64,000 nt of DNA from Tetrapisispora phaffii CBS 4417 (taxonomy: Eukaryota > Ascomycota > Saccharomycetes > Saccharomycetales > Saccharomycetaceae): contig NC_016520.1 in assembly GCF_000236905.1 (NCBI RefSeq), positions 1 through 64,000 on the forward strand, read 5' to 3'. Under the pieces are notes generated by a model. That model saw only the letters and a list, made by a program, of their open reading frames with translations. It was not told the DNA's origin and did not search any database. A program made the position numbers and the translations under genes. Every line of letters starts with the position of its first letter. Positions within the stretch are counted from its first letter, which is position 1. Of this stretch, positions 1,097-10,350 are shown piece after piece.

Positions 1097-2233
1097 CTAA
1101 ACCTTGTGTGTTCGAGGCTTCTGCATCGTTACTAGTGTCATGAGATACATCAGAGCTGTGCTTATTTTCGTCCGAGCTTTCTTCCTCGTTATTTTTTTTC
1201 TCCAGGGCAAGAACCACAGAAGAGAGATATGCCAATACAATGCTATCACATTTAAAAAGCATATAACGCAAAAGAACACCAAAAGTCCAAATGCAACTTC
1301 TACTCCTGTAGAGGCACTGTCATTGTAGATATCTTTAAATAACCCGGAAATAAATATTGATGTAAATACAATCAGTGTTACAAAAATACCACGGAATGAA
1401 CCAACTCTTAGCTGATATAACCATTTTAACTGCTCCTCGACTTTACTAAAGTAATTCAATAATTTATCCCATTTTAATTGTGATTCTTCAATCGACTGTA
1501 ATATACTACAGCAGCAATTAACGATCCCTTCATTTTTTTTGTATGTCAATTTTTGCTCATTTAAAAAACGTAAAATTGGCTCATTTCCAGTTGTCTGGGA
1601 ATTGACACATTTTTTAAAATCTCTCCTTAGAAATAGCAGTTTTTTGAAATGCTTTGTATTTAAAGAAAAAATTGAGTCATTTTGTAGTTCTATGCTTTCA
1701 ATTTTTTTCTCTAAATTCTGGAAGAATTCGTTTACTGATATCCTATCATAATTAACTACCAATTTCAGAAAGGCATAAGGAAACTGATCCTTCAAACTGT
1801 GCAAGTCCATAAAATTGGCTCCAACAATGGGTACCGGGCCGTTATCATTTTTAAAAAACACAATTGTGCACTTTTGCATTTGCATTAACTGAATTTCAGC
1901 ACCTAATTTTTCTGGCTCCTCCTTTAATGTTCTAGGCAGTGTGGTGCCATTAAATAAAAAGTATGTCTGCTCGAACTCGGTTGAGTATATGTCTCTAACA
2001 TTTTCTATTTCAAATGAGGGAAGCGCTATCTGTTTTACGTCGTAGTACTTGTGCAAAAAAAGAACTGCATAATCGTTGTTAATTAGAATATTTTGAAGTC
2101 TATCACCAATATGTCTTTTATTATAAATATTTTCTTCAATTGGTCTCGAGCCACCTTCATGTACCTCATCAGTTGAAGAACTACCTGTTGTTTGGATGGT
2201 ATATAAGGTTGCGATTGGTTGTTGTTCTGGCAT
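1097..2233 (-). CDS. Two-transmembrane protein of unknown function with apparent C-terminal frameshift
   Basis: The start is an ATG at 2233. The open frame encodes 378 residues: a soluble N-terminal region of about 270 residues with Lys/Glu-rich helical stretches, then two strongly hydrophobic segments near residues 280-300 and 312-338. The two-helix C-terminal layout recalls CorA-like channels, but I see no GMN signature, so no assignment is made. The last 30 or so residues turn abruptly into Lys/Arg/Thr-rich sequence after a run of eight A (minus strand, about 1194-1201). The neighbouring phase, ending at 1020, reads an acidic Glu/Asp/Ser/Asn tail instead. That switch suggests a one-base indel in the homopolymer, real or from sequencing. 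The gene itself is likely real. Confidence 0.55.
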   Translation of the reverse strand: MPEQQPIATLYTIQTTGSSSTDEVHEGGSRPIEENIYNKRHIGDRLQNILINNDYAVLFLHKYYDVKQIALPSFEIENVRDIYSTEFEQTYFLFNGTTLPRTLKEEPEKLGAEIQLMQMQKCTIVFFKNDNGPVPIVGANFMDLHSLKDQFPYAFLKLVVNYDRISVNEFFQNLEKKIESIELQNDSIFSLNTKHFKKLLFLRRDFKKCVNSQTTGNEPILRFLNEQKLTYKKNEGIVNCCCSILQSIEESQLKWDKLLNYFSKVEEQLKWLYQLRVGSFRGIFVTLIVFTSIFISGLFKDIYNDSASTGVEVAFGLLVFFCVICFLNVIALYWHISLLWFLPWRKKITRKKARTKISTALMYLMTLVTMQKPRTHKV

Positions 2234-3047: not shown

Positions 3048-4122
3048 TCAACTACTGCAACCAACTTCTGAACATTGGGCACCATCTTTACCATCATTTC
3101 AGTAGCTATAAACACCACCGTACGTATTGAAATATAACTCTCCATGAAATGCATTTTCTTTACCAATGTCATCATAAACATCAGCAACCCCAGTATGATC
3201 ATTTTTTTCGGCAGCAATACAATATTTCCAACCATGGTTATTATCGAACCAGTCGTAGACAGTAGAATCATATTCTTCTTCTTCTATTTGTCTATCCTCC
3301 GCTACCTCTCTAGAAAGATCAGAATTTGAATCATCATAATTAATTGAAATCCATTCTACATCAACAGCTCCACCATCCCTTTTAAATAATGTGGCATTTT
3401 TAGTATGTCTTGGAGTAGATTCCAAAGAGCCAGGATTACTATCAGAGATAATATCTTGTAACATAACATTCCAATCTTGTCCCATGTGAGCACCTATATG
3501 ATACCCCAAACTTGAATTCCAGTTCAAGATAATATTATTCACACTTGAGGCGTTAAATATATCCCTTTTGACTAGAGCAGAAGCAGAGAGATTTGTTATA
3601 CCAATTAAATTTAGGCCAACACTGGACAATGTGTCTGCTATATAAATCTCAACATCCGGAGCAACTGTTGACAACACATAGCCTTTATTTTCTAAAAAGT
3701 ATTTCTAGTCGACCTTTTTGATGTGGCAGACTGAGATCCACTCCATGTAACTAATTCCAGCCTGCGCAGCTGCGGCAACCAAGATAATGGCTGCGGCAAC
3801 CCAGCCAACCCGGTACAATTGGTGGACAATTAGAAGCAAACCAAGCACCAGCTACCCCGCCGACTGCTACCACAATGTTGTGACTAGCACGCGAAGCAAA
3901 AATTGTCCATTTATTTCTTTTGCACACAGTTACTGTGGATTCTGTTGGCTGTAAAGGAATTAAATTAGAATTCAATGATCGTCTTGAGATAATATCATTA
4001 ATTGCATAGAATAGAAAATAAACTATAATATAACCGATTAAGGCTCGAATATATCTTAAAATTTCGGATTTGCGGAACTTCAAACTAGAACACCATTTTT
4101 CGTTGTTACCCGGTTCTACCAT
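3048..4122 (-). pseudogene. Broken killer-toxin-like precursor: signal-anchored, Kex2 sites
   Basis: A minus-strand gene starting with an ATG at 4122. The first open part has one membrane segment near residues 25-42, a Thr-containing linker, a Lys-Arg at residues 68-69, then a hydrophobic segment near 82-97 followed by a Cys. A frameshift around 3780-3820 moves the coding potential to another phase. That phase then carries an in-frame TAG near 3706, a long open stretch (3677-3099) with two Lys-Arg-Asp sites and N-glycosylation sequons, and an in-frame TGA at 3099-3101 shortly before a Cys-containing end. The layout (anchor, Kex2-type sites, hydrophobic helices, terminal Cys-containing domain) resembles yeast killer preprotoxins and the neighbouring minus-strand gene at 5856-6615. 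Three separate lesions make it a pseudogene. The family assignment is inference. Confidence 0.55.
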
Positions 4123-4414: not shown

Positions 4415-5835
4415 TCCACATCGCTTGCTTACAGTTAAACTATATCAATTGAGCAACATTTATTGAGCTCATTCAATCAACAGGTTCTATCATAAGCTGC
4501 TCATGAGCATAACTATTTGTGCTGCAACTATTGTGTTGTAAGCTGGGTTTTGTATTAGGAAATATTTGATATACAACATCCTGATGCTGTGTCTTTAAAA
4601 CAAATAATGGTTGCAAAAATGACATCAATGGAACCGTGCAGAGACGGGGCCTAGGAAACAGCAACTTAGACGAAGTTACAACATTTTCAATTGGCAATGG
4701 CAATGCAGTCGTCGTCTGGTACCAACACAATTGAGATCCCTGGTAACTGTGCGCTTGGTTGCATCGTTTAGTGCAGTGCAATTGGATGCTGCTCCAGGAA
4801 CACTGCCGAAGTAAATGTGCAGAAAAGTGGAAACGCTTCTCTGATAAGGGAACCGTTTACTATCCCAGCTGAAATTGAAAAGAGAACACCGCGTATGCCC
4901 CACTCCTGAGAGCACCGCCCAACCATATTCTTTCTCTGTAAACGAGGCACACAAAACGCGCAACGTAGTTTTAAACACTTGTGCACGAATATATACTTTT
5001 AAAATCTTTGGTTCTAAAAAATAAATACTGTTAGTAATAGTCGCAGAAGCTCAAGAAGTAGCAATTTTCGTCGGCTTTATAAACATGTCTTGACAGTGCG
5101 GATATCTCTAGCTTCTCTGAAAACAACTACTTCAAGATTGAAAAAAATGTGGTCCATTGCTTTTCCGCGCTGGGAAATCACAATCCATACTAAATAGGAA
5201 ATTGGAAGAACCTGTTGGGAAATACCGTGGTTTTTTCCCTTGGGTCAGCCATGTTTGTCGCTGAAACAGAAGACGCGCGGCATTTCATTTCCCTTTTCGG
5301 CAGAAATAAGAAATTTCGTCATGCTAGAGAGATATCCGCAGAAGGAACTTCTTTTTCCCAGCACTCTCGTTGGGACATCGCGTCTTCCAGAGATATTGCA
5401 GGTGCGGAGTGATGAAGTTACAACCGTTGGTAGTTAGTGCTGCGCAGTACTACGTCAGAGCAAACATAAGTCTCTAATCCACAGTAACCAACGTTCGTTT
5501 AGGTCATTGGCCTATTCAGAAGTCCGAGGAGAACATATTTGTTTCCTGACAACGCAGAAAATGTTAACTACTTCGCAGTATGGGAGCTGTTGCAGCCGAT
5601 ATGCCGTTGCAGGGACACACAATTGCTGCTGGTGCTTCCTAGCCGCCACCATACTGTGAAGTTTTTTCTTTGAGATTCAATTGGCGGATGTTTTATGTTT
5701 TTTAAATGGGCAACGGTTGCGAAAATATGATGATTAAACAATGCTTACACTCCTATGGACTGAGCATCCGTTTAATAAAACTCTATAGCAATAAACATGT
5801 TTGCTTCTATGGACGTAGTTGGTAGAATGAATGAA
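4415..5835. repeat. Subtelomere-like repeat, copy 1 (about 1.4 kb)
   Basis: Closely matches 6788-8147 in the same orientation. The best conserved part is 5250-5440 against 7570-7750, and the copies end at the same motif ending GAATGAATGAA. The repeat has higher GC than its surroundings and short open frames in several phases, none convincing as genes. It carries an exact match to the 11-bp ARS consensus (WTTTAYRTTTW) at 5691-5701. It ends exactly at the assembly gap at 5836. It separates the minus-strand pseudogene from whatever lies in the gap. Confidence 0.8.
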
Positions 5836-5855
5836 NNNNNNNNNNNNNNNNNNNN
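5836..5855. other. Assembly gap (20 N)
   Basis: Twenty N bases. The gap truncates the 3' end of the minus-strand gene at 5856-6615 and sits exactly at the right end of repeat copy 1. In copy 2 that position is followed by the promoter of the K1-like gene. The true size of the gap is unknown. Confidence 0.99.
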
Positions 5856-6615
5856 CTACAGATAAGTTAGATTGTAGAACAGTTAATGTAGGTAAGCCTG
5901 AAAGCTGTGCCATAGCCGCCGTAATATTTTGTACATTTAAAAGATATTCTGCTGCAAGCTCAGTATCTCGTTTCCGCCAGGCATCATTGATTGATGATAA
6001 CCATGCACGATCAGCACTATTAATATATTCGTAATTGAAAGCTGCCTTATTGACTGTTGCCATCGTACCAACTGCCGTAGCAACACACCCGGTTACACAT
6101 CCAGCTTTATCAGCAGTTCCAGCACTACCTTGCGACCAATTTATACATGATTGTGCTGTACCCCAAAGGCTAATTCCTGTTATAACCAACTTAACTGCAG
6201 CAAGAGTCCACCATAAATATGCTACACGTTTACCGAGCGGTGATAATGTGGTAGTTGTAGTACTTGTGGTCAAAGTGGGTATATCAGAATTTTGTGGTTC
6301 CGGATATACCCATCCTGTTGTATAATGATTACTATCAGAAGTATTACTGTTTAAAGGAACGTTCAAAGGCAGTAAATCAATAAAGCTTTCGTGACGCTTA
6401 ACTATATCTTTAGTCAAGTGCAGTCTAATTTCCTCGATAAATAAAGTGTTTTCTTTTTCTATTGTATTCAATGTTCGGCTAGTTTGGACTACAGACCACA
6501 ATGCAACTAAGATGAATATTAAGAGTAAATATAACAAAAATTGAATTGCATCACGCCTAAATCTTAGCGATGTCTCTTCCTCCGTAGACCCTCCCTGTTG
6601 ACGTGAAGGCTCCAT
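5856..6615 (-). CDS. Signal-anchored, Kex2-site precursor of unknown function (partial, 3' end in gap)
   Basis: The start is the ATG at 6615; the frame extends further upstream only through TTG codons. About 253 residues are visible before the gap. In order: a short charged N-terminus, one strong membrane segment (24-43), a glycosylatable linker with a run of Thr (about 117-124), Lys-Arg at 129-130, a hydrophobic helix (131-152), Cys 157, 173 and 177, a second hydrophobic helix (about 174-187), and another Lys-Arg at 215-216. The order of anchor, Thr linker, Lys-Arg and hydrophobic pair with Cys matches the pseudogene at 3048-4122. It also recalls the alpha part of the K1-like precursor at 8390. 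It could be a toxin-like precursor or an immunity/partner protein. The C-terminus is missing. Confidence 0.55.
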
Positions 6616-6787: not shown

Positions 6788-8147
6788 TCCACGTCGCTTG
6801 CTTACAGTTAAACTTTATCAATTGAGTAACATTTATTGAGCTCATTCAATCAACAGGTTCTATCATAAGCTGCTCATGAGCATAGCTATTTGTGCTGTAA
6901 CTAAAGAGTGGTAAACTGCTTTGTATTATGAAATATTTGATATACAACATGCTGATGCTGTGTCTTTAAAACAAATAATGGTTGCAAAAATGACATCAAT
7001 GGAACCGTGCAGAGACGGGGCCTAGGAAACAGCAACTTAGACGAAGTTACAACATTTTCAATTGGCAATGGCAATGCAGTTGTCGTCTGGGTACCAACAC
7101 AATTGAGATCCCCTGGGTAACTGTGCGCTTGGTTGCATCGTTTAGTGCAGTGCAATTGGNNNNNNNNNNNNNNNNNNNNGCTGAAATTGAAAAGAGAACA
7201 CCGCGTATGCCCCACTCCTGAGAGCACCGCCCAACCATATTCTTTCTCTGTAAACGAGGCACACAAAACGCGCAACGTAGTTTTAAACACTTGTGCACGA
7301 ATATATACTTTTAAAATCTTTGGTTCTAAAAAATAAATACTGTTAGTAATAGTCGCAGAAGCTCAAGAAGTAGCAATTTTCGTCGGCTTTATAAACATGT
7401 CTTGACAGTGCGGATACCTCTAGCTTCTCTGAAAACAACTACTTCAAGATTAAAAAAAATGTCGTCCACTGCTTTTTCGCGCTGGGCAATCACAATCCGT
7501 ACTAAATAGGAAATTTGGAGAACCTGTTGTGAAAACACCGTGCTTTTTCCCCTTGGGCCAGCCATGTTTGTCGCTGAAGAGGAAGACGCGCGGCATTTCA
7601 TTTCCCTTTTCGGCAGAAATAAGAAATTTCGTCATGCTAGAGAGATATCCGCAGAAGGAACTTCTTTTTCCCAGCACTCTCGTTGGGACATCGCGTCTTC
7701 CAGAGATATTGCAGGTGCGGAGTGATGAAGTTACAACCGTTGGTAGTTAGCGATGCGCAGTACTATGTCGGAGCAACATAAGACTCTAATCCACAGTAAC
7801 CAACGTTCGTTTAGGCCATTGGCCTATTTAGAAGTCCGAGGAGAACATATTTGTTTCCTGACAACGCAGAAAATGTTAACTACTTCGCAGTATGGGAGCT
7901 GTTGCAGCCGATATGCCGTTGCAGGGACACACAATTGCTGCTGGTGCTTCCTAGCCGCCACCATACTGTGAAGTTTTTTCTTTGAGATTCAATTGACAGA
8001 TGTTTTATGTTTTTTAAATGGGCAACGGTTGCGAAAATATGATGATTAAACAATGCTTACACTCCTATGGACTGAGCATCCGTTTAATAAAACTCTATAG
8101 CAATAAACATGTTTGCTTCTATGGACGTAGTTGGTAGAATGAATGAA
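6788..8147. repeat. Subtelomere-like repeat, copy 2 (with gap)
   Basis: Second copy of the 4415-5835 repeat, in the same orientation. A 20-N gap at 7160-7179 stands where copy 1 has roughly 85 bases. The ARS-consensus match is retained at 8003-8013. Immediately to the right is the 5' region of the K1-like killer gene, and to the left lies the minus-strand signal-anchored gene. The copies differ by scattered substitutions and small indels, so this is not simply one contig placed twice. Confidence 0.8.
7160..7179. other. Assembly gap (20 N)
   Basis: Twenty N bases inside repeat copy 2. Comparison with copy 1 suggests roughly 85 bases belong here. Confidence 0.99.
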
Positions 8148-8389
8148 TTATATATACTAGATACAGATCTGTTTTGCGAAGAATTTATGCAGAGTGAGAC
8201 GCTTCTAAGCGACAGATAAATAGTTGGCAAAAAATAACTTACTTTCTTTCTTTTTAGTGCAGATTTTTCATGTATAAAGAGGCTCAACTTTCAAATGTAG
8301 AACATATAATCTTTCTTCCAGAAATATTTCTTTTTGTCATAAAAGTAAGATAAAGAAAGGCAAACATATATTTGGTAAAACAGGTCAAT

Positions 8390-9322
8390 ATGAGAGTTGT
8401 TGGAATTTTTACTGTTTTGGTAAGTGTTTTAGTGTTTGCTGACGCATCTTTTCCCAGTTACGACCAAATAGCGCTGATAACGAGTTCATGGGCATACGCA
8501 TATTTTGATTCCGCCAACCCAGTATTGGTTAAGCTAGCTTGGTGGGGTGCTTTTCTTGCTTCCGATGGAGGGCCAATTGCATGGATTGAACAGATGCAGG
8601 ACACCTGTGACGCTTGTAAATCCAAACATGAGGATCCTGCCAACACTGATTGCAGAAAGGGCATTTACGCTTTAGTGAAAGGTGCAATTAAAAATGTGGT
8701 AACAGGAGCATTGGGTTGGCATAGTGGTCTAGGCCCTAATGGTGAATTTTTAGATGGTTACTTTAATAAGAGAACCGTTTTAACTCTTAGCAATCATACT
8801 AATAGCTTGGGTCAAATACATGCTGGAATAGCAGCAGCTTTTGTCGAAAATGGAGGAGTATTAATTAGAAATGATCTGTCAAAATTAGAAGTCAGAGATA
8901 ATGACAGCAGCAGTGATATCATCGTCCAAGTGCATAATAATACTTCCGGTTTTTCTTATGATGCAATTATAAGACCCAAGAATGAAACTTGTGGAACTTT
9001 ATTAATTGGGTCGTCAATGAATTCTTCTAGTGTTTCCAAGCGAAACCCCGTGAAACTTTATCCTCTTTGTGAGGGTTATTTTGCTACTGATTATTGTGCA
9101 AATCAAAAACAATGGGCAGGTTTTTACAGCAGTAACGAACTAGAAGCCCAAATAAACGAAATCGTTCAAAATGATGTAACTGGGGGATGGCAAACAGATT
9201 TCTTAAAACTGTATACGTTTCAGGAAGATGGAAAGGATCAAGATTGGCAACTGTCCATTCGTATGTATTATGTGCAAGAAGGAGTGAATGCTTATTGGGA
9301 TTCATGTGATACAGGAAGTTAG
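8390..9322 (+). CDS. K1-like killer preprotoxin homologue (chromosomal)
   Basis: The first ATG is at 8390; the upstream extension uses a TTG. The 310-residue product begins with a clear signal peptide (hydrophobic 3-16, likely cleavage near residues 19-20). An alpha-like region follows, with two hydrophobic segments (about 44-66 and 91-110) flanking Cys73, Cys76 and Cys88. Next are Kex2-type Lys-Arg at 127-128, a glycosylatable spacer with several N-X-S/T sequons, a second Lys-Arg at 217-218, and a 92-residue beta-like C-terminal part with Cys227, Cys236 and Cys306, ending in a Cys-Asp-Thr-Gly motif. Cysteine spacing, processing sites and length match the S. cerevisiae K1 preprotoxin. K1 is normally carried by a dsRNA satellite, but chromosomal K1-like genes are known in related yeasts. 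The frame is intact. Activity cannot be judged from sequence. Confidence 0.85.
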   Translation: MRVVGIFTVLVSVLVFADASFPSYDQIALITSSWAYAYFDSANPVLVKLAWWGAFLASDGGPIAWIEQMQDTCDACKSKHEDPANTDCRKGIYALVKGAIKNVVTGALGWHSGLGPNGEFLDGYFNKRTVLTLSNHTNSLGQIHAGIAAAFVENGGVLIRNDLSKLEVRDNDSSSDIIVQVHNNTSGFSYDAIIRPKNETCGTLLIGSSMNSSSVSKRNPVKLYPLCEGYFATDYCANQKQWAGFYSSNELEAQINEIVQNDVTGGWQTDFLKLYTFQEDGKDQDWQLSIRMYYVQEGVNAYWDSCDTGS

Positions 9323-9360
9323 ATGTCTTTCTTTATTTTTATATTTAACTTATTGATTAT

Positions 9361-9667
9361 TGTTGCGATAGTAATTAGGCGTACTGAGAAGACATACTGC
9401 TATTAGTGTTGTTGTAATAGTAATTTGTACAATTAGTCGAGTTGTAATTGCTTATCTTATTTCTATATTTATTATATACATTATATGTTGAATTATATTT
9501 TATTTGATTATTCATCGTTAAGAGTCAGTATTATATTATAATTCTCCGTCGGGATCTATATAAAATAAATAATACATAAAGATACTAATTATACAAGTTG
9601 ATTAAGACAGTTGATTTATTTTACACGGATGGAAAAACCCTGGTATTTATACCAATGATTTCTAACA
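9361..9667 (+). mobile_element. Putative solo LTR, 307 bp
   Basis: Begins TGTTG and ends TCTAACA, the termini expected of a Ty1/copia-type LTR. It has a TATA-like segment (CTATATAAAATAAATAA) about 100 bases before the end. Parts recur at 2703-2825 (5' part), 9932-10106 (3' part across a gap) and about 16098-16190 (3' part). No 5-bp target duplication is visible. It starts 38 bases after the K1-like stop codon. An alternative is a non-LTR subtelomeric repeat. Confidence 0.45.
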
Positions 9668-9911
9668 CGATCACGAAACCATTCCATCGTCGAAAGACAT
9701 GTTAGATATATTGAGTGGTTTTTAATTTCCAATTTGGATTGTGACGTTTGCCTATTTCAGTTGTATGATTATCAAATCATCACATATGTGATTACTCTTT
9801 CATAATTCAAGTATGTGTCATACTATTTGGCCATACACTAAGTAAATTAGGCAAGATGTAAGTATGCTCATCAATTTTTATATCCAACACCAAGTATTTT
9901 TATGATAGTCT

Positions 9912-9931
9912 NNNNNNNNNNNNNNNNNNNN
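9912..9931. other. Assembly gap (20 N)
   Basis: Twenty N bases at the end of the first 270-bp repeat copy. Confidence 0.99.
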
Positions 9932-10060: not shown

Positions 10061-10080
10061 NNNNNNNNNNNNNNNNNNNN
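10061..10080. other. Assembly gap (20 N)
   Basis: Twenty N bases directly before the second 270-bp repeat copy. The 15 bases before the gap are repeated right after it, so the true gap may be zero or negative. Confidence 0.99.
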
Positions 10081-10350
10081 GGTATTTATACCAATGATTT
10101 CTAACACGATCACGAAACCATTCCATCGTCGAAAGACATGTTAGATATATTGAGTGGTTTTTAATTTCCAATTTGGATTGTGACGTTTGCCTATTTCAGT
10201 TGTATGATTATCAAATCATCACATATGTGGTTACTCTTTCATAATTCAAGTATGTGTCATACTATTTGGCCATACACTAAGTAAATTAGGCAAGATGTAA
10301 GTATGCTCATCAATTTTTATATCCAACACCAAGTATTTTTATGATAGTCT

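Follow-up and report, generated by a model that had tools for sequence, protein, structure and literature searches.

A Complete K1-Like Preprotoxin Gene near the End of Contig 1

The window analyzed here, a stretch of 64,000 nucleotides, is the left end of contig 1 (1,377,933 bases) of Tetrapisispora phaffii CBS 4417. Its forward strand carries at 8390–9322 an intact K1-like killer preprotoxin open reading frame (ORF) of the KKT family, 310 aa from ATG to TAG; its completeness had been stated in an earlier note on this DNA and is confirmed. Paralogs elsewhere in the genome match it in the same frame, which speaks against a chance frame. The protein opens with a signal-peptide-like start (codons 1–19, 8390–8446), as already proposed in that note, in which hydropathy is 2.42 across the hydrophobic residues 3–19 (Kyte–Doolittle) and the A-D-A end and cleavage site were placed by eye. 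The alpha part (codons 20–126, 8447–8767), the proposed toxic, membrane-acting domain, was assigned by analogy with the domain limits of K1 and K1L (PMC13211469) and holds Cys73, Cys76, and Cys88 in an exact CxxC-x11-C pattern. The two hydrophobic segments singled out earlier are indeed present in it, at 42–58 and 92–108, but they are modest (1.05 and 1.21, Kyte–Doolittle), and the maximum after the signal peptide (1.43) is at 143–159, beyond the proposed alpha part.

The protein has three dibasic pairs, at 89 (RK), 127 (KR), and 217 (KR). Lys127-Arg128 (8768–8773), the proposed Kex2 site at the alpha end, and Lys217-Arg218 (9038–9043), the proposed gamma/beta Kex2 site, had both been correctly located in the earlier note, and both are aligned in all three full-length paralogs of the genome. 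Between them is the gamma part (codons 129–216, 8774–9037), proposed to be lost on maturation, with Cys201 and all six N-x-S/T sites of the protein; the beta part that follows (codons 219–310, 9044–9319) has 92 residues, as previously counted, and contains Cys227, Cys236, and Cys306. There are thus seven cysteines (73, 76, 88, 201, 227, 236, and 306), six of which had been listed rightly, while Cys201 of the middle segment had been left out. No dibasic pair that could delimit a delta segment occurs in residues 20–88, between the signal peptide and alpha. A KR in the delta position is present in two T. phaffii relatives (contig 8 and C2:1153220, that is, position 1153220 of contig 2), and the absence of a delta segment is not counted as disqualifying from the K1-like family.

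The setting is repeat-rich, as the earlier note had it. Four runs of 20 Ns (5836–5855, 7160–7179, 9912–9931, and 10061–10080) are probably assembly gaps, which cut the subtelomere into short stretches, and two identical 270-bp copies that abut gaps (9642–9911 and 10081–10350) may be an assembly effect. Because the 2,732-bp stretch with the gene (7180–9911) sits between two such runs, its chromosomal place rests on scaffolding, and one might suspect that the frame is open by chance or that assembly has misplaced cDNA of a dsRNA satellite. The probability that 310 codons remain open at the base composition of the window is, however, about 6e-11, paralogs are found on other contigs, and the same stretch includes a solo LTR and one copy of a subtelomeric duplication, which mark it as chromosomal DNA; we regard such an origin as extremely improbable. 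The duplicated segment (7180–8147, forward strand) is upstream of the gene and 97% identical to window 4868–5835. Downstream, on the same strand, are a copy of a dispersed subtelomeric repeat of about 128 bp (9358–9486) and a solo LTR-like repeat of 404 bp (9486–9889) with TGTTG...CAACA ends, at which no 5-bp target duplication was found. The two repeats have 39 and 42 genome matches, respectively, some of them pieces of a single copy, and 38 and 40 of these fall in the terminal 30 kb of contigs, a zone that accounts for 7.9% of the 16 long contigs.

Other frames of this subtelomere were also considered. A gene with DUF5341, the C-terminal domain of K2/KHS-type toxins, occupies 3072–3530 (reverse strand); a single TGA interrupts its domain match, and it has 41.6% identity to a DUF5341 protein of 380 aa encoded on contig 4. 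We read it as a damaged killer-like gene of a second type in the same subtelomere; the inclusion of 3751–4122 (reverse strand) in it is a guess. The ORF at 5734–6615 (reverse strand) was considered as a K2-type toxin but is left unassigned, as it has no significant Pfam match, the frames of three DUF5341 loci did not extend to it, and it crosses a 20-N gap; by eye, its early part has an anchor-like hydrophobic stretch, and an LGKR site is also visible. Finally, a 378-aa frame at 1097–2233 (reverse strand), probably a further subtelomeric family, has a close relative (likeness judged by eye) at C2:1154.6k, which also adjoins a K1-like copy.

A Subtelomeric Family with Three Full-Length Loci

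Searching the assembly with the 310-aa protein gave 19 matches and with TPHA_0B00100 ten matches. Merged by place, these correspond to about 13 K1-like loci, the weak one being C15:5093 (E 2.1e-4), and all 13 are situated 0 to 22.2 kb from contig ends. Only three are full length from ATG to stop: 8390–9322 on contig 1, C2:1055–1927, and C11:10320–11192, the last two on the reverse strand and 95% identical to each other, a closeness that no other full-length pair of the genome shows. At 27–29% identity, the three full-length paralogs keep Cys73/76/88/227/236/306, KR127–128, and KR217–218 invariant and have a W-x-x-C-D-x-G-x end in common. Named paralogs in this strain are TPHA_0C05025 on contig 3 (C3) and TPHA_0B00100 on contig 2. 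Among the ten incomplete loci, five (C11:513.8k, C2:8.0k, C8:749.8k, C2:1153.2k, and C7:3.6–4.1k) retain an ATG, and their alpha frame stays open until a stop 16–46 residues beyond the KR that closes alpha. In the C3 copy (268 aa) alpha and gamma are both open, and C7:5582–6388 is an open frame without its start. The first alpha cysteine is gone in the C3 and C11:513k copies. The two copies on contig 7 (3633–4115 and 5582–6400, reverse strand) are 96.6% identical across 495 bp.

Comparison of the 8390–9322 gene with the C3 copy gave a dN/dS of 0.247 (NG86, 235 codons), the first, second, and third codon positions differing at 66, 56, and 105 sites, and a dN/dS of 0.082 (NG86, 55 codons) in the C-terminal piece of that copy; these and the following values are rough, because dS, at about 0.7 to 2.9, is near saturation and YN00 gave a value for only one of ten pairs. 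Over the main piece of the C3 copy, the ratio was 0.30 in alpha, 0.21 in gamma, and 0.16 in beta (24 beta codons aligned). Against truncated copies it was 0.19 (C2:8.0k) and 0.37 (C11:513k), part of the measured divergence falling on branches to broken copies; two truncated copies offered no beta codons to compare. Within the near-identical C2/C11 full-length pair, dN/dS was 0.39 overall and 1.55 in the beta part, the latter on seven differences, too few for interpretation. The 8390–9322 gene appears to have been selectively retained, and constraint extends to gamma and to the compared beta codons.

This distribution of constraint bears on the idea that the gene no longer encodes a working toxin and has been maintained for the immunity that its alpha/gamma part confers against the K1-like toxins of neighbors. 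The five alpha-only loci fit this idea, such copies being a family-wide feature (PMC7888664), as does the lack of any TpKKT among the clones named as killing in Saccharomyces cerevisiae in the text of that report. Against it, gamma and beta are wholly open here, with constraint in gamma and in the 24 beta codons compared as well as in alpha, and beta is not needed for K1 immunity (PMC13211469). We therefore hold a purely protective role to be unlikely and favor a gene retained as a preprotoxin.

Relationship to the K1 Toxins

Conventional searches with the 310-aa protein returned few relatives: Pfam gave no family match, the PDB no relative (one match at E 0.11 was taken as chance), and word-based searches of protein databases, one of which scored just the 7995 candidates with most shared words, no homolog outside T. 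phaffii, the matches besides the protein itself being T. phaffii proteins only. Such a search evidently misses relatives in other yeasts that are 16–28% identical; for comparison, full-length Kkt proteins have 16–28% identity to K1L (PMC7888664). A scan of viral contigs with two patterns produced 53 pattern matches and no relatives.

The link to a named toxin came from Foldseek (3Di+AA) searches of a viral structure library with two predicted models, for which separate alignments of 9 and 11 T. phaffii rows had been used. For model 1, the top match was K1L (A0A7U0R264; E 1.3e-7, 26% identity over 273 columns; next match 0.053), and K1L was again on top for model 2 (E 1.4e-4, 20% over 368 columns; next match 1.5e-3); it is the only match below 0.001 in each search. 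K1 by name was absent among the best 50 matches listed per search, several of which are nameless. The models themselves are poor (pLDDT 37.4 and 38.7), and we rejected them as evidence of fold; of the alpha/beta sandwich enclosing a central hydrophobic helix that is expected of K1-like toxins, they contain a helix at 88–108 or 89–113 and strands in gamma and beta, all of the same low confidence, and TM-scores to K1L of 0.14–0.19 carry no weight for such models. We nevertheless used the library matches because the same named toxin was on top for both models, and we read them as sequence matches because Foldseek scores letters besides shape. Homology to K1L is thus seen mostly at the level of letters. 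Structure prediction, which the earlier note had suggested as a check against K1, confirmed no fold, though it did yield K1L as the best viral-library match.

LTR Sequences beside Killer Loci

The proximity of LTR matches was assessed for all 19 killer-like loci, that is, the 13 K1-type and 6 DUF5341 loci, with random expectations obtained by relocating each locus to a randomly chosen chromosome end while roughly keeping its distance from the end. An LTR match was present within 1 kb of nine of the 19 (2.5 expected; reached by 1 of 4000 shuffles), within 500 bp of six (1.6 expected), and within 200 bp of five (1.1 expected; 11 of 4000 shuffles), figures to be read in the knowledge that loci are not independent (subtelomeres duplicate), repeats cluster, several thresholds were applied to the same data, and gaps vary by locus. 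Five K1-type loci (C2:8.0k, C11:10.3k, C2:1.0k, C13, and the outer member of the two-copy contig 7 array) have no LTR within 1 kb, and four of them none even within 400 kb. On contig 7, a copy of this Ty1/copia-type LTR abuts a K1-like copy: homology ends at C7:6400 and TGTTG starts at 6398, so that the copy at 5582–6400 is without its first 19 or so codons at the LTR start, while its near-identical neighbor keeps the signal-peptide codons. About 650 bp on from this LTR copy is a TYA (Ty capsid family) frame, at 7467. At the right end of contig 13, a frame of the Ty5 Gag N-terminal family (E 2.5e-42) is located about 570 bp from the K1-like remnant at the contig tip.

We take this adjacency above the chromosome-end expectation as a lead, not as proof of retrotransposon transport. 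Retrotransposon-aided capture was proposed by Fredericks et al. on other grounds (PMC7888664). The fuller proposition, in which Ty1/copia-type elements helped to bring in or spread the K1-type and K2-type (DUF5341) genes of T. phaffii, left LTRs next to them, and now break copies, so that the 8390–9322 gene is among the few intact ones, seems to us rather improbable. None of the titles listed by a literature search (10 of 51 papers) reports the LTR–killer gene neighborhood, which is no proof of its being unpublished; the neighborhood bears on how killer genes enter genomes and multiply in them. As to the capture and domestication from dsRNA that the earlier note had envisaged, the GAAAAA motif, which served as the dsRNA trace in Kazachstania africana, does not occur within 200 bp upstream of the 8390–9322 gene, and the locus does not demonstrate such a transfer. 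The motif was seen in two of five other copies, in C11:513k at −24 and in C3 at −41, the latter distance being measured from the beginning of the match instead of an ATG; its presence there may be due to chance in A-rich DNA.

Identity and Proposed Working of the Gene

The gene family is already known. Across six yeast species, Fredericks et al. (2021) described 24 KKT genes together with 14 pseudogenes, mostly about 20 kb or less from chromosome ends (PMC7888664). The earlier note was right to point to such genes in related yeasts, and T. phaffii itself is among the species of the published set. TpKKT1–3 were cloned in that work, and TpKKT1 was not separable from TpKKT2 by primers (PMC7888664). 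Since the C2/C11 loci are the sole near-identical full-length pair, the 8390–9322 gene is probably TpKKT3. Overall, we consider it very likely that the gene is a full-length, selectively retained KKT member of the contig 1 left subtelomere, probably TpKKT3, with a proposed role as a toxin. The earlier identification of an intact K1-like preprotoxin gene therefore holds, on the strength of the frame, of cysteines and KR sites invariant among paralogs, and of K1L as top viral-library match.

Whether the gene is active and how its owner is protected had been left as questions, which published work answers in part, at the level of the species: T. phaffii kills other yeasts, is self-immune, contains KKT transcripts, and showed no satellite dsRNA (PMC7888664). 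On the other hand, most KKT clones were inactive in S. cerevisiae, halos being named only for PmKKT1, KaKKT2, and NdKKT1 in the text (PMC7888664), and a glucanase, Kpkt, is a further killer toxin that T. phaffii releases (PMC2779178). Killing by T. phaffii might come from Kpkt, or from K2-type genes, alone, with the 8390–9322 gene silenced subtelomerically. Kpkt is established as a killer toxin of this species (PMC2779178), the genome also has DUF5341 (K2-type) genes, and subtelomeric silencing has been raised for K. africana (PMC7888664). The KKT transcripts found in T. phaffii argue the other way, although those of TpKKT1 and TpKKT2 are indistinguishable and the text is silent on TpKKT3 (PMC7888664). 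We see this explanation as possible but, on balance, somewhat unlikely, and retain that of a proposed toxin.

In the K1 path, the signal peptide is removed, alpha and beta become disulfide-linked, Kex2 and Kex1 cut the precursor, and wall binding is followed by a membrane attack that depends on Kre1 (PMC13211469). Immunity comes from the precursor, through alpha and a short gamma piece, beta being dispensable (PMC13211469). Both Kex1 and Kex2 are reported to be required by K1L homologs, whose alpha part is toxic alone (bioRxiv 2024.10.11.617966, as cited in PMC13211469). Judged by its sequence features, the 8390–9322 gene appears equipped for this path, the delta segment excepted. By analogy with K1 and K1L, the signal peptide would direct the preprotoxin into the secretory pathway, where a disulfide would join alpha and beta during folding and gamma would serve as a glycosylated linker. 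Kex2 would cleave after KR128 and KR218, Kex1 would trim the products, and the secreted alpha–beta dimer would bind the wall of a rival yeast, whose membrane alpha would make ion-leaky. The maker would be protected by uncut precursor (alpha and the start of gamma), and the truncated alpha-only paralogs perhaps add to self-protection. The finding confirms from raw sequence that one gene family occurs on both dsRNA satellites and yeast chromosomes, and an intact copy makes the toxin and immunity functions testable in the natural owner.

Comparison with Known Killer Systems

The closest counterparts are TpKKT1–3 themselves, which come from the same species and family and share the subtelomeric place and the occurrence of several copies with truncated relatives (PMC7888664); the length of 310 aa is inside the published KKT range of 153–390 aa (PMC7888664), and no difference from TpKKT1–3 is demonstrated for the 8390–9322 gene.

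K1, which is borne by the dsRNA satellite M1 of S. cerevisiae, was set beside our protein by its published numbering and not letter by letter. It has the same alpha–gamma–beta plan with basic cut sites and the same alpha cysteine spacing of 3 and 12, the earlier note having rightly equated the two CxxC-x11-C patterns (73-76-88 here, 92-95-107 in K1). The further statement that the final three cysteines match K1 stands for the first beta spacing, which is 9 in both, but not for the second, which is 70 here versus 64 in K1 (C239, C248, and C312; PMC13211469). K1 has six cysteines in all (PMC13211469) versus seven in our protein. A delta segment is present in K1 as in K1L, where it spans 27–36 (PMC13211469), whereas the 8390–9322 protein is without one.

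K1L, from the dsRNA satellite M1L of Saccharomyces paradoxus, differs in being dsRNA-borne, in its 20–26% identity to the 8390–9322 protein, and in its demonstrated activity, whereas the product described here is a putative toxin. The two nevertheless share the alpha–gamma–beta plan, a beta part of 92 residues (249–340 in K1L; PMC13211469), and the position of the first beta cysteine, which is the ninth residue of beta in both.
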